DNA from: Methylomonas sp. 11b
Lineage (GTDB): Bacteria; Pseudomonadota; Gammaproteobacteria; Methylococcales; Methylomonadaceae
Direction of reading: 5' to 3'
NCBI RefSeq assembly: GCF_000515215.1
Contig: NZ_KI911557.1
Span: 2,005,586-2,069,585, forward strand
Length of the DNA stretch: 64,000 nt
The notes beneath the pieces are model-generated. The model was given only the letters and a program-made list of their open reading frames with translations, did no database searches and was not told where the DNA came from. The position numbers and the translations under genes are program-made. Positions 12,711 to 18,257 of this stretch are shown here, one piece after another (position 1 is the first letter of the stretch; every line of letters begins with the position of its first letter).

Positions 12711-13546
12711 TTAGCCAAGCCCATGTCCAATTTCATCTATAGCGTTTTCAAGCTCATTGGGAGTAAATATTTTACAAAACAGCCATTCGTATTTGATTTT
12801 ATATCATAGCAATTCAATCCGGTTTAGCTCTGGTCTGTAGGGCGGCAGAAAATAAAATCGCATGCCGTTTTCCTCCAATAAATTCCAATAAGGTTTCAGT
12901 TTCTTGGCGTTGTGAATCGGTGCGTTATCCAAAACACCACCAAGGGTTTGCTGAAACCTTCGATCAAGGCCATCAGAAAACCAAATAACCAAAGGGTATT
13001 CATGTTATGCCACAGTTTAACCAGTATGACTCGGCCGGATGAAAGTAAATTGCCTATGACGACATCCATCCACTGCGCGCGCGTGGCGATCACCGTATGA
13101 ACATCACCGCTTTTCGTCCAAACAGAACGATTCGGCGGTTGTGGCGCAAATCCGGCTGCATCCCCTTAGGCCAACTCGCTGTCTCCGGCTTCCGTGTGGT
13201 TTATCAACGCTGAAATATAGCGTCGGGCTTACTTCGAACCGCTCGGGATCTCACTTCTTGCGCCTTTTAGGTATTTTTTTAACTGTAGCGCGTGCGTTTC
13301 CAGGCGTAGCCCATCCGTTTCAACTCGTTCCGCAAGGCTGGCGCTGATCGTCACGCCGCATGCCGTTGTCAGGTGACGGCCCCATGCACGACAGGTCAAC
13401 GTCTCCGCTTCAAGCCATTCCTTGGGTAGTTGGCGATACTCATGGGTCAATTTGCTCAGCAGGCGACAGCGCGGCTGGTCCGCTAAACTGCTGACTCCGG
13501 TTCTCCACCACTTCCGCCGCCGTTCACCGATGGCTTTTGGCTTCAC
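12711..13546 (-). pseudogene. IS630-family transposase, decayed
   Basis: Pieces of one transposase occur in order on the minus strand. The helix-turn-helix N-terminal part (GVSSLADQP, SKLTHEYRQLPKEW, CGVTISAS) is at 13229-13546. The first catalytic-acid region (DAAGFAPQPPNRSVWTKSGD) is near 13090-13160. The second (LDNAPIHNAK) and the PELNRIE glutamate region are at 12804-12992, and a C-terminal KYEWLFCKIF...GHGLG tail stops at 12711. They are in different frames, and a TGA interrupts the last part where Trp is expected, so the gene is dead. The 5' end is cut off where the palindrome-rich repeat begins at about 13571. No terminal inverted repeats could be identified. Confidence 0.82.
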
Positions 13547-13570
13547 CTCTTGTTGCTCCGTAACATTCCG

Positions 13571-14079
13571 TATGCTGCGCCGAGCACCGGAGCTTTTGAA
13601 CGGACAAATCGGCAGGATAGCTGATTTGCATGCGCATTACCCGAAGGGCGAGGTACATGGATGTACCGAGTGAGCAGCCCGTTAGGGGCGCTGCAGGAAT
13701 GCGGCGCGTTGCCGAAGGGGCAGGAAGCCCCTTTCGGCAACCCCGTTCAAAAGCGAGGAGCGCAGGGAATAAGGCATCCGGGTGGCCTGCTGACTCGCGC
13801 CATCCGGGCGCTCGCACTTCGTGCGCCTATGGCGTCCAAATCCGCTCCCGGCGGATTTGTCTTTGGATACTTTTCTTTGGACAAGCACAAATTCGCCTGG
13901 AGCGAATTTGAACAGCCGATAGGCTGGCCCGAAGGGCGAAAACCACGGATGGTTTTCGTAGCGAAAGTATCTCGGCTGTCGGGCCGAGACCCGACATTAA
14001 AATAGGTCGTGGCAATTCAACACTATGCGTACGATCACGCGATCGATGCGCTTCACTTTGTTCAGCACATCCTATGGGC
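13571..14079. repeat. Palindrome-rich repeat, copy 1 (long form)
   Basis: About 510 bp, nearly identical to 14488-14996 and, in a shortened form, to 15408-15778. It contains nested inverted repeats: a GAACGG...CCGTTC pair about 150 bp apart, a hairpin around GCCGAAGGGGC/GCCCCTTTCGGC, and a hairpin around CAAATCCGC/GCGGATTTG. Open frames of ~60-115 codons run through it on both strands but appear to be by-products of its composition. Its right end (CACATCCTATGG) lies next to the stop codon of the small gene at 14084. The left end abuts the IS630 remnant. Confidence 0.85.
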
Positions 14080-14083
14080 TAAA

Positions 14084-14407
14084 TCACGCTTTAGGTCTCC
14101 TGGCCGAGTAGTAGAACAACCACCACAAATGTGCAACAAAAATAGGCCCAAAAATCACAGCAAAAACATACCAAAGATACGGTTTTAAAAATTCAATATA
14201 TGTAACGGCTGGAATTATCGGCAACGAAGAAAAGAACAAAATTTCAATACGAAGGAAGACCCTGACAGCTTCTGCCAATCTACTTCGGTCAAGCCAATCC
14301 CCTCCAACTTCTTTAAGAAACAAGTCGTGATTTCGGTATCGCAGAAGCCTATCGATCTTCCAAATGGCCAACATGAGCATAATGATGCTAATTATCCAAT
14401 TAGGCAT
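14084..14407 (-). CDS. Small three-helix membrane protein, copy A of a tandem pair
   Basis: The 107-residue reading starts at the ATG at 14407, which has GGAG five bases upstream; a TTG at 14422 would extend it, but the ribosome site favours the ATG. Three hydrophobic segments are visible (about 4-20, 52-72 and 80-102). The protein differs from the copy at 15002-15325 at only 8 of 107 positions, mostly conservative swaps (I/V, L/I, M/L), so both look selected as proteins. No family is recognised. It lies between two copies of the palindrome-rich repeat, its stop just beyond the end of the repeat to its left. Small membrane proteins in such arrays can be immunity factors, but nothing here proves that. 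Confidence 0.7.
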   Translation of the reverse strand: MPNWIISIIMLMLAIWKIDRLLRYRNHDLFLKEVGGDWLDRSRLAEAVRVFLRIEILFFSSLPIIPAVTYIEFLKPYLWYVFAVIFGPIFVAHLWWLFYYSARRPKA

Positions 14408-14487
14408 AAAAACTCCATACAATCATCGTTGGCAGAAAGCCGTGCCCACCCCAGGCCTATAGTGAAACCGGGATGGTTTTCTCCCCG

Positions 14488-14996
14488 TATGCCGCGCCGA
14501 GCGCCGGAGCTTTTGAACGGACAAATCGGCAGGAAAGCCGATTTGCATGCGCAGCACCCGAAGGGCGAGGTTATGGATGTACCGAGTGAGCAGCCCGAAG
14601 GGGCGCCGCAGGGATGCGGCGCGTTGCCGAAGGGGCAGGAAGCCCCTTTCGGCGACCCCGTTCAAAAGCGAGGAGCGCAGGGAATAAGCGGCATCCGGGT
14701 GGCCTGCTGACTCGCGCCATCCGGGCGCTCGCACTTCGTGCGCCTATGGCGTCCAAATCCGCTCCCAGCGGATTTGTCTTTGGATACTTTTCTTTGGACA
14801 AGCACAAATTCGCCGGGAGCGAATTTGAACAGCCGATAGGCTGGCCCGAAGGGCGAAAACCACGGATGGATTTCGTAGCGAAAGTATCTCGGCTGTCGGG
14901 CCGAGACCCGACATTAAAATAGGTCGTGGTAATTCAGCACGATGCGAACAATCACGCGACCGATGCGCTTCACTTTGTTCAGCACATCCTATGGGC
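14488..14996. repeat. Palindrome-rich repeat, copy 2 (long form)
   Basis: About 510 bp starting 917 bp after copy 1 and differing from it at scattered positions. It shows the same nested palindromes and ends in the same CACATCCTATGG sequence beside the stop codon of the next small gene (15002). A ~60-bp lead-in (GTGAAACCGGGATGG and flank) is shared with copy 3 but absent from copy 1, where the IS630 remnant takes its place. Confidence 0.88.
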
Positions 14997-15001
14997 CTAA
15001 A

Positions 15002-15325
15002 TCACGCTTTGGGTCTCCTGGCCGAGTAGTAGAACAACCACCACAAATGTGCAACAAAAATAGGCCCAAAAATCACTGTAAAAACATACCAAAGATACGG
15101 TTTTAAAAATTCAATATATGTAATGGCTGGAATTATCGGCAACGAAGAAAAGAACAAAATTTCAATACGAAGGAAGGCCCTGACAGCTTCCGCCAATCTT
15201 CCTCGGTCGATCCAGTCCCCACCAACCTCTTTAAGAAACAAATCATGATTTCGGTATCGCAGAAGTCTATCGATCTTCCAAACGGCCAACATAAGCAAAA
15301 TAATGCTAATTATCCAATTAGCCAT
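15002..15325 (-). CDS. Small three-helix membrane protein, copy B of a tandem pair
   Basis: This is the 107-residue twin of the gene at 14084-14407 (99 of 107 residues identical), with the same GGAG-5 bp-ATG start context and the same three hydrophobic segments. The charged stretch between helices 1 and 2 (KIDRLLRYRNHDLFLKEVGG) is unchanged between the copies, which suggests it matters for function. It sits in the second unit of a repeat-gene-repeat array with a period of about 920 bp. No homologous family is recognised. Confidence 0.7.
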   Translation of the reverse strand: MANWIISIILLMLAVWKIDRLLRYRNHDLFLKEVGGDWIDRGRLAEAVRAFLRIEILFFSSLPIIPAITYIEFLKPYLWYVFTVIFGPIFVAHLWWLFYYSARRPKA

Positions 15326-15407
15326 AAAAACTCCATACAATCCTCGTTGGCAGTAAGCCGTGCCCCCCCCCTAGGCCTACCGTGAAACCGGGATGGTTTT
15401 CTCCCCG

Positions 15408-15778
15408 TATGCCGCGCCGAGCACCGGAGCTTTTGAACGGACAAATCGGCAGGATAGCCGATTTGCATGCGCAGCACCCGTGAGGGCGAGGTACAGGGAT
15501 GTACCGAGTGAGCAGCCCGGTAGGGACGCCGCAAGGATGCGGCGCGTTGCCGAAGGGGCAGGAAGCCCCTTTCGGCAACCCCGTTCAAAAGCGAGGAGCG
15601 CAGGGTATAAGCGGCATCCGGGTGTCTTTTCTTTTGGATACTTTTCTTTGGACAAGCAAAGAAAAGTATCTCGGCTGTCGGGCCGAGACCCGACATTAAA
15701 ATAGGTCGTGGCAATTCAACATGATACGAACGATTGCGCGACCGATGCGCTTCACTTTGTTCAGCACATCCTATGGCC
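15408..15778. repeat. Palindrome-rich repeat, copy 3 (short form)
   Basis: About 370 bp starting 920 bp after copy 2. It matches copies 1 and 2 at both ends but lacks about 140 bp in the middle. At the junction it forms a perfect 13-bp stem (GATACTTTTCTTT and its complement) around a short loop, 15636-15671. Its right end CACATCCTATGG contains the TAG stop codon of the following minus-strand gene (15771), so the gene boundary lies inside the conserved repeat end. Confidence 0.85.
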
Positions 15779-16250
15779 CTGGATTATTGTCCAAAGCTAG
15801 TCGAAGGTACCCATCAAATCTGGCGTGAATCAATTCATCGGTTATCGATTTAATATCTTCAGCTAATTGTTCTAACTCTTCAACGGTTGGAATAGGGTGA
15901 AGCTTTCCAGGAGTTATTTGTATTGAGGCTTCGCCATCAAGTTCCTGAGACCAAACACTGTGAGTCAATTCATTACGTTTATCAGTTAACCGCCCTGCAC
16001 GAACCAATAACGCCTGGAGCTTTAACAAGGCCTCCCCTTCACCCAGTCGTTTTTTAGCTAGTTTTTTGATTCGCTCCCTTAGCGATCTAGTCCCTTCATA
16101 CTGAGTAGCATCCAAGACCTCCTGGGGAGTAATTTCAGCAAATGACCTTATAGTCATTTTTAGCACATGGTTAAGTTGCTCATGACGAAGTGCCACTTTT
16201 CCAATTGCAGCAAGTAGCTCCTGATCTTCAGGTAAAAAAAACATCAACAT
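15771..16250 (-). CDS. Hypothetical protein with a HEPN-type RNxxxH motif
   Basis: The 159-residue, predicted all-helical protein carries R92-N-E-L-T-H97, the R-N-x3-H pattern of HEPN-domain ribonucleases, in the expected place near the start of a later helix (LTDKRNELTHSVW). The N-terminal LRHEQLNHVLKMTIRSFAEI resembles the first HEPN helix. HEPN proteins are common as toxins and as effectors of anti-phage systems. No MNT-type antitoxin partner is visible beside it. It is the last gene of the repeat array, and its TAG stop lies inside the conserved end of repeat copy 3. The start may be at 16250 or 16244. The family call rests on the motif and predicted helices only. Confidence 0.55.
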   Translation of the reverse strand: MLMFFLPEDQELLAAIGKVALRHEQLNHVLKMTIRSFAEITPQEVLDATQYEGTRSLRERIKKLAKKRLGEGEALLKLQALLVRAGRLTDKRNELTHSVWSQELDGEASIQITPGKLHPIPTVEELEQLAEDIKSITDELIHARFDGYLRLALDNNPGP

Positions 16251-16283
16251 ACTTTAGACTTTTACCCCTTCCGTATAAATCAA

Positions 16284-18257
16284 TTACACCACCAACCTCG
16301 GCACCGCCGACAACAACCTCTGAGTATAAGGATGCTCCGGCGCCCCACAAACCTTAGCAGTCAAACCTTCTTCTACAACCTTCCCCTTATACATCACCAC
16401 CGTCCGATCACTGAGATACTCCACCACCCCAATGTTATGCGTGATAAACAATAAGGTCAGATTCCGCCGCCGCCGAATGTCGAGCAGCAATTGCAGTATT
16501 TCCGCCTGCACCGACACATCCAGCGCACTGGTGATTTCATCGCACACCACAAACTCCGGATTCAAGGCCAAAGCTCGCGCCAAACCGATGCGTTGGCGTT
16601 GGCCCCCGGAAAACTCGTGCGGGTAGCGCCACAGCGATTCGCGGCTGAGCTGCATGTCTTCCAGCAGTTGCCCGGCCAGCTCGATACGCTGTTCTTGATT
16701 GGCACCGATGCCGTGCACTTTCATCGGTTCGGTTAGCGTGGTTTCCACCAGCAAACGCGGGTTGAGCGAGGATTGCGGGTCTTGAAAGGCAATCTGCATC
16801 TTGCGGCGTAGCGGCCTGAGTTCGCGCGCGGACAGGCCGGTGAGTTCCTGGCCGTCGATGTGGATACTGCCGGCAGTCGGCAGTTCCAATTGCAACACCG
16901 CCCGGCCCAAGGTGGTTTTGCCGCAGCCGGACTCGCCTACCAAGGCAACGATTTCGCCGCGCGGAATATCCAGCGATACTTCATCCACGGCTTTGACGTA
17001 ATCGACGGTTTGCCGGAACAAACCTTTTTTGATGGGGAACCAGACTTTCAAATCACGGATTTGCAGAAGCGGTTCGCCCTCCTTAACAATTATCTGGGAG
17101 GAACTCTTATGACTATCCCCATCTATCCGAGCCGAGCTGGTAGTCCCCTCTCCCTCCGGGAGAGGGCTAGGGTGAGGGGAGTTCATCGAAACGTTTTGCG
17201 TTGACTGTAGCCTTAAGCCGGCGCGCTCCAGTACGGAAAGCAGTTTTTTATCGCTCTTACTCAGCAACTCATCCGACAGAGGGGGCGAATAAGGTGAAGC
17301 ATCGATTTGCATCCCCTCACCCTGCCCTCTCCCGGGGGGAGAGGGTTCTGCTTCCGTTTTTACGACGGGCTCCTCTGGCAGAGGGATATCTTCCTCGCTT
17401 GGCGATTCGGCGGTTTCGGGAGCAGACGGATTCACACACCTAACCGCCCGGCCCGGCTTGGCCAGATTTTCCGGCACCGCAGCCAGCAATTGTTGGGTAT
17501 AGGGATGCTGAGGGTTGCGCAGTACTGACTTACACGCGCCAACTTCCACCAGCTTGCCTTGCTGCATCACTCCTACCCAATGCGCCATCTGCGCCACTAC
17601 GCCGAAATCGTGGGTGATGAACAACATGCTCATGCCGGTGTCGTCCTGGAGTTTGCGCATCAGGCGCAAAATCTCAGCTTGTACGGTCACATCCAGCGCG
17701 GTGGTCGGTTCGTCGGCAATCAGCAATTGCGGCTGGCAGGCCAGGGCCATGGCGATCATGACCCGTTGGCGTTGACCGCCGGAGAGTTGGTGCGGGTAGT
17801 CGGCAAAGCGGCTGGAGGCATTGGGGATTTGCACCTGTTCCAAGGCCCTGATGGTCCGTTCGGTTGCTTCCGCATCGTCCATATCGGCATGATGCAGTTG
17901 CAGGGCCTCGGTGATTTGTTCGCCTATACTCATGACCGGATTTAAGGAGGTCATCGGCTCCTGGAAAATCATGGCGATTTGTAAACCGCGCACGGCACGG
18001 ATGCCCGGATCATCCAGGGCTAGCAAGTCCTGCCCGTTCAGAAAAATCTCGCCGCTGGGATGCGAAGCCACACCGTCCGGCAATAAGCGAATCACCGACA
18101 AGGCGCTGACCGACTTGCCGCTGCCCGATTCGCCGACCAAACAAAAGGTTTCGCCTTTGGGGATGCTGAAACTGATGTCGTCTACCGCCCGCACTTCGCC
18201 GCCGCCGGACCTCAAATAAGTGCGCAGATTGCGCACTTCCAATAGGGCTTGGCTCAT
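16284..18257 (-). CDS. Yej/Dpp-type peptide ABC transporter, fused double ATPase subunit
   Basis: The 657-residue protein has two complete ATPase domains. The first, residues ~1-265, has Walker A GESGSGKS, signature LSGGQRQRV and Walker B LLIADEP. The second, ~395-657, has [17 protein letters not shown] and FVVCDEI. It powers uptake of peptides or similar solutes, like YejF (about 530 residues). The extra length is in the linker (~270-395), which includes two segments, PPGRGQGEG and [11 protein letters not shown], encoded by a dispersed DNA repeat. The gene overlaps the upstream permease by 4 bp and is the last gene of the operon. Confidence 0.9.
17144..17180. repeat. Dispersed palindromic repeat inside the ATPase linker, copy 1
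   Basis: A 37-bp sequence with the internal hairpin CCCTCTCCC/GGGAGAGGG followed by a GGGTGAGGGG tail. It is a familiar type of dispersed extragenic repeat in proteobacteria. It lies in frame in the coding strand of the ABC ATPase, where it reads [12 protein letters not shown] second copy in opposite orientation is at 17313-17345. Confidence 0.8.
17313..17345. repeat. Dispersed palindromic repeat inside the ATPase linker, copy 2 (inverted)
   Basis: The same element as 17144-17180 in the opposite orientation: CCCCTCACCCTG, then the hairpin CCCTCTCCC/GGGAGAGGG with one change in the loop. In the coding frame it reads PPGRGQGEG. Both copies keep the reading frame open. Confidence 0.8.

Follow-up and report, generated by a model that had tools for sequence, protein, structure and literature searches.

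Paired copies of a folded repeat as probable borders of gene-exchange docks in Methylomonas

The array and its repeated element

To understand why one palindrome-rich repeat occurs three times in succession beside small genes of Methylomonas sp. 11b, we analysed a window of 64,000 nt (positions 2005586–2069585 of contig C1, the single contig of the 5.41-Mb genome G000) together with related genomes. The original prediction had read this array as a series of units, each a repeat followed by a gene ending at CACATCCTATGG, laid out like integron cassettes or an orphan immunity array. We consider it probable that the repeat, here called element E, is the boundary of exchange docks, a subset of which swap integron cassettes, and that the window holds a duplication of E and gene A beside an exchange position.

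All three repeats were confirmed, with spacings of 917 and 920 nt. E copy 1 (13563–14014, + strand; 452 nt) covers positions 13–256 of the nhmmer model and repeat families D1 and D3–D5; it is a long form with extra palindromes, and the first 12 model positions are missing. The same search placed a second long copy at 14471–14927 (+; 457 nt) and a shorter third copy at 15391–15712 (+; 322 nt), from which the palindrome modules of copies 1 and 2 are partly missing. The final ~65 nt of each window repeat, up to CACATCCTATGG, are a separate dispersed repeat, M6 (14015–14077, 14928–14994 and 15713–15776, all +), occupying the place where E usually finishes in GTCGCGATAGCGACAC. The coordinates confirmed that CACATCCTATGG, with 3′ ends at 14077, 14994 and 15776, lies beside the stop codons of genes A1 (14084–14422, −) and A2 (15002–15340, −), which begin at 14084 and 15002, and over the stop codon of gene B (15771–16250, −), contained at 15771–15773 within the third M6 copy. 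As a general boundary CACATCCTATGG failed, since only three of its 13 sites at ≤2 mismatches are in the window and most of the others lie away from E 3′ ends. The common form of E is modular, ~260 nt long and runs from CCCGTATGCCGCG to GTCGCGATAGCGACAC; the window copies are atypical in their tandem arrangement, their extra palindromes and the exchange of their 3′ end for M6. Other direct or triple layouts were seen at L234 (two + pattern matches 3 kb apart) and L311 (E(−), E(+), E(+)), and possibly resemble the tandem form of the window.

The repeat exceeds chance recurrence: the fetched stretches of its own genome, together with the window, hold 53 copies scoring above 50 bits, and at least one more lies elsewhere. 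DNA searching detected E in 29 of 41 genomes (26 of the 34 good ones), and the covariance model R1, applied to an evenly drawn sample of the order under stricter filters than the DNA search, detected it in 64 of 142 good genomes and 21 of 45 genera. On plasmids, E was represented by only three Pasteurella records of 50 nt each. Rfam 15, compared with E from six sources, gave no match above gathering score; an RsmW match overlapping one E copy reached 29.2 bits, below its 52. At another locus, L059:2572–2857 (−), the Rfam family 5_ureB_sRNA matched with 124.8 bits against a cut-off of 40.

Gene A (107–112 aa) belongs to no known family and has one relative outside the genus. Within the genus it occurs in one of 37 genomes, its own, as two copies with 99% and 92% identity to the query, and E1–A1 and E2–A2 share 97% and 94% identity over two 300-nt blocks. 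Given this distribution within the genus, E–A–E–A is a local tandem duplication. Broken pieces of an IS630-type transposase (DDE_3 and HTH_32, below cut-off) border the array on its left (12804–13546). Gene B (159 aa), unrelated to gene A as predicted, is likewise confined to its own genome among the 37, with 111 relatives outside the genus; searches of plasmids and viral contigs for gene B gave nothing. Its residues Arg90, Asn91 and His95 (R-N-x3-H, an RX4H pattern), invariant in all 22 aligned relatives, form what we take to be a HEPN-like motif. No immunity family was matched above cut-off, gene A being without a match and gene B reaching only 13.2 bits with Imm3 (E 0.095; cut-off 25), so the orphan immunity array finds no backing here.

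Inverted E pairs and the turnover of their cargo

The arrangement of E elsewhere was surveyed in 70 stretches from five genomes, 67 of which carried E, with copies within 4.5 kb counted as neighbours. The resulting 59 pairs were dominated by the inverted orientation with 5′ ends inward (45 (−,+), against 8 (+,+), 4 (+,−) and 2 (−,−); binomial p 2e-16 versus an expectation of one in four). These 45 pairs enclose 55–3908 nt, at least 500 nt in 37 of them, and the 37 large islets have a median G+C of 0.42 compared with 0.525 for all fetched sequence, the contents being mostly one or two AT-rich accessory genes. The outer E ends lie close to host genes, at either gene end (≤50 nt in 42 of 89, median 57, as placed by a crude gene caller). 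All 16 regions from other genera carried E and just one, L301, had an inverted pair, so E pairing looks to be mainly a Methylomonas trait.

Scanning of 54 of the 56 listed cargo proteins gave Pfam matches to several transposases, Mrr, HNH, dCTP deaminase, Peptidase_M78 and HSDR_N, and PADLOC matches to dCTPase (2.8e-163), capP (capP/RmrA-like; 3.6e-19), AriA (3.1e-13) and PDC-S59 (2.5e-29, two halves of one gene in L112). Many cargo proteins had no match at all, and no transposase family was common to the islets among the 54; our impression is that the cargo is often defence-like. When islet and H1 ORFs (the dock H1 is described below) were compared with the loci, the cargo that recurred at different docks consisted of RAYT and IS genes. 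A RAYT-like gene, about 78–93% identical, lies beside E at two docks in four species (L044, L102, L106 and L121). One E pair (L071:6008–7627; own genome 3253007–3254626) encloses an anti-phage-type dCTP deaminase followed by a 59-aa ORF. A full-length close copy of this deaminase occurs in its own genome only, of the 37, and distant relatives (35–40%) sit at loci with no E found within ~1.5 kb.

One dock, H1 (that of L066), has a downstream gene present in all 37 genomes. Five genomes were excluded as their contigs begin or end there, leaving 32 loci, and the upstream gene was not found in G051, giving 31 resolved loci. Fourteen of the 31 species carry E–cargo–E, and the other 17 have a gap of 18–124 nt without E. 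In 12 of the 14 occupied loci the left E lies 7–27 nt past the upstream stop (120 nt in G048, 262 nt in G011), and the right E lies 19–39 nt ahead of the downstream start in all 14. The downstream gene is closer to our own among the other occupied species (87–97% identity) than among the empty ones (74–87%), suggesting that the H1 arrangement is likely to descend from one ancestral insertion.

Cargo was compared by blastn at 12 docks in 111 pairs with both islets ≥500 nt (nine shorter ones were set aside), 91 of them at H1 and therefore not independent. In 98 of the 111 comparisons the cargoes share ≤20% of the islet (83 at H1, 15 elsewhere); ten share 20–50% and three share more. E copies from the same dock and side have a mean identity of 0.886 (n=49) compared with 0.802 (n=3389) for other E copies of different genomes, and the left and right E of one pair are at 0.801 (n=28). 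The cargo nearly always differs between species, while E copies stay with their dock. The original idea of a constant element with exchangeable genes thus holds, and genus-wide, but the usual unit is E(−)–cargo–E(+) and not a repeat plus a gene ending at CACATCCTATGG.

Junction sites and competing explanations

With G048 set apart, 76 of 78 pairs at H1 lose their homology 55–87 nt past the left E, within the islet (12–33 nt in at the rearranged G048 locus); on the right side homology stops near E or ~120–155 nt inside. The left junction is GATATACAGAAACCATTTAATnACTT-G^TTRRRY, an integron core site, the consensus being GTTRRRY/RYYYAAC in the part of PMC12901181 available to us. A ~36-nt site ahead of the H1 core matches an attI beside a Methylomonas intI. 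A model built from 19 such attI-like sites was run over 2.28 Mb, mostly from loci with E, with a reporting threshold of ≥12 bits; it gave 53 matches (38 distinct), and none in the reversed sequence; in the 70 E-pattern loci nine non-training places score ≥15, four more being training places again. In the own genome, an unbiased search by pattern found four attI-like sites (control, 0), three within 0.8 kb of E. The fourth (3915647–3915676, L338; one mismatch) is 9.6 kb away from any E found and is possibly a dock without E.

The cassette ends give mixed evidence. An exact complement of the core (R′′) lies by the stop in nine of the 38 site-bearing cassettes, two of the nine being one cassette in two species, against a chance expectation of about 0.4 by arithmetic estimate. 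Of 43 islet cargos, however, five have RYYYAAC close to the stop, compared with 13 of 469 controls (p 0.012), which limits the integron reading. Full attC sites were present in L210 and L336. In the latter (G013), the same site type and a textbook attC adjoin an intI with a single TAG in its frame, indicating that, on sequence grounds, the H1-type dock site is an attI. A cassette start at the G^TTRRRY of attI/attC was observed at H1 and at some other docks.

An intI above cut-off was found in 14 of 37 genomes and was absent from G023 and G002, which both have docks. The own genome has 23 integrase-model matches, none of which falls in the window, as had been predicted; one is an IntI over cut-off (567841–568794; L312, L317), full-length at 439.6 bits (cut-off 265), with no attI-model match nearby and far from every E copy found. 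The intI beside attI that would mark a complete integron was not found at the docks.

The integron reading covers a subset of docks; elsewhere it has a serious rival in homologous recombination through E. In that rival, the E pairs or their flanks act as homology arms, shared by incoming and resident DNA, by which cargo is swapped, and the attI-like sites are passengers at some docks. Only eight of the 37 large islets have an attI-like site of ≥12 bits, five of them among the training sequences, and the 29 without one are what this explanation would predict. It also gains from an HNH block shared by L057 and L085, which is 95.8% identical between two species compared with 90.1% and 85.4% in the flanks, and from same-dock E copies that are no nearer than random (e.g. 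0.79; down to 0.74). However, those 76 of 78 pairs at H1 share one core site as their left junction, and most E copies are dock-bound; as an account of the docks in general we find it plausible but somewhat doubtful.

MICs and TIMEs are known to consist of inverted repeats around passenger genes without a transposase, and E pairs may similarly be the terminal inverted repeats of non-autonomous transposons whose cargo came with its own pair. E–cargo–E is missing as a whole from the empty H1 sites, and the L057/L085 block stops at the outer E ends, beside which the adjoining flank losses differ; both observations fit a transposon. The docks share with MICs and TIMEs the inverted repeats and the lack of a transposase, but E is 260 nt long and stays while the cargo changes, so that the E copies of one dock are common to species with different cargo. 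No direct target duplication was visible at the junctions of H1, the one dock inspected for it, and no transposase family unites the islets among the 54 proteins scanned, making this explanation unlikely. pdif modules, in which inverted short XerCD sites surround single-gene modules, are alike in their inverted borders, whereas E is a folded 260-nt element and not a short XerCD site.

Swapping of cassettes at a subset of docks, the reading that we prefer, bears on the window through its relatives. Gene B is separated by a gap (16251–16283, −) from a conserved host gene bordering the dock (16284–18257, −; named from its sequence as the ATP-binding protein of an ABC transporter), and the position beside this gene is occupied by a different, unrelated gene in each of three species (the own one, G012 and G023). 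An attI-like site precedes the gene in G012 (L104, 22.1 bits) and in G023 (L088, 17.5 bits), located in the equivalent of the gap, both being training sequences. In G012 the terminal TGCTAAC of the gene overlaps the stop and is the complement of the core GTTAGCA. In both relatives, judged by these motifs, the dock appears to hold integron cassettes with no integrase alongside. In the window there was no site-model match near 13.5–16.3 kb and, read by eye, no RYYYAAC core at the gene B stop. What marks gene B as exchanged cargo is thus its position and not a sequence signature, and the proposed integron link is borne out at the same dock in relatives while no attI or attC was found in the window.

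This also bears on whether the array is nothing more than a gene and an ordinary dispersed repeat, duplicated locally in tandem, the outcome that would have reduced the original prediction to a feature found only here. The similarity of the E1–A1 and E2–A2 blocks and the single genome carrying gene A are what it would predict, and for E–A–E–A it is correct. As a full account it is contradicted by the relatives, in which the gene B position holds other genes, and by the E pairs that bracket changing cargo genus-wide, and we consider it improbable. Spread of E as a REP/REPIN-type repeat by RAYT transposases, for which the RAYT-like genes in a few E islets might speak, was rejected as very improbable, with just two of 11 own-genome Y1_Tnp matches lying between E pairs.

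Folding of E, a candidate mechanism and its meaning

In 55 E copies we obtained 77 consensus pairs, of which 28 are changed on both sides, in up to 30 sequences at one of them. In those pairs that are mostly Watson–Crick, the forward strand (from cargo to host side) has 103 G-U versus 6 A-C cells, compared with 5 G-U and 22 A-C cells when the other strand is folded; the forward strand gives the more stable fold in 54 of the 55 copies. The covariation, the G-U/A-C asymmetry and the forward-strand stability together argue that a strand-specific single-stranded form of E is under selection. Because of the outward orientation of the pairs, transcripts that exit the cassette on either side read E forward, and E may insulate the host operon.

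Taken together, E(−), a short attI-side region, one or more accessory genes and E(+) would sit in intergenic gaps as exchange docks, where the E pair would outlast speciation and the enclosed gene would be replaced. In a subset of docks this gene would be an integron cassette starting at G^TTRRRY and, when intact, ending in attC, moved by an IntI acting in trans from the same or an earlier host. Insulation of the host operon would fall to E, folded in a strand-specific manner as RNA or single-stranded DNA and read in the outward direction. In the window, E and gene A were tandemly duplicated beside the exchange position that now holds gene B. An integron mechanism may also act at docks without a recognisable attI; this and the way in which an E pair first inserts are inferences. 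A wider formulation, which we offer only tentatively, is a distributed integron of dozens of one-cassette docks, each an attI-type platform with an outward pair of folded-RNA E elements, swapping foreign, often defence-like genes in host operons without read-through, with the integrase in trans.

As far as the available parts of PMC12444791 and PMC12901181 describe chromosomal integrons and CALINs, the docks resemble them in single-gene cassettes, the GTTRRRY core, attI, attC in some cases, intI in part of the genus and arrays away from intI. They differ in that each site holds one or two cassettes, that the dock has an attI-type platform but no intI, that its borders are long inverted folded repeats, and that many docks have no recognisable sites. 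According to the same partial sources, which cite Loot et al. 2024, cassettes can be inserted away from the integron at attG sites that diverge from classical att sites; the docks likewise hold cassettes away from an integron, but keep a conserved attI-like site across species. The literature on repeats and layouts or integrons, in the available parts of PMC8527097, PMC12901181 and PMC12444791, contained no description of the dock layout.

If this reading is correct, single foreign genes would be taken up at many ordinary operon gaps, each site being kept stable. This would account for the rapid turnover of accessory genes that are private within a genus, and the structured repeat, present in nearly half (64 of 142) of the good genomes of the order, would gain a testable function. 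The docks would also be a searchable source of candidate defence genes, such as those for dCTP deaminase, capP/RmrA-like, PDC-S59, Mrr and HNH proteins.
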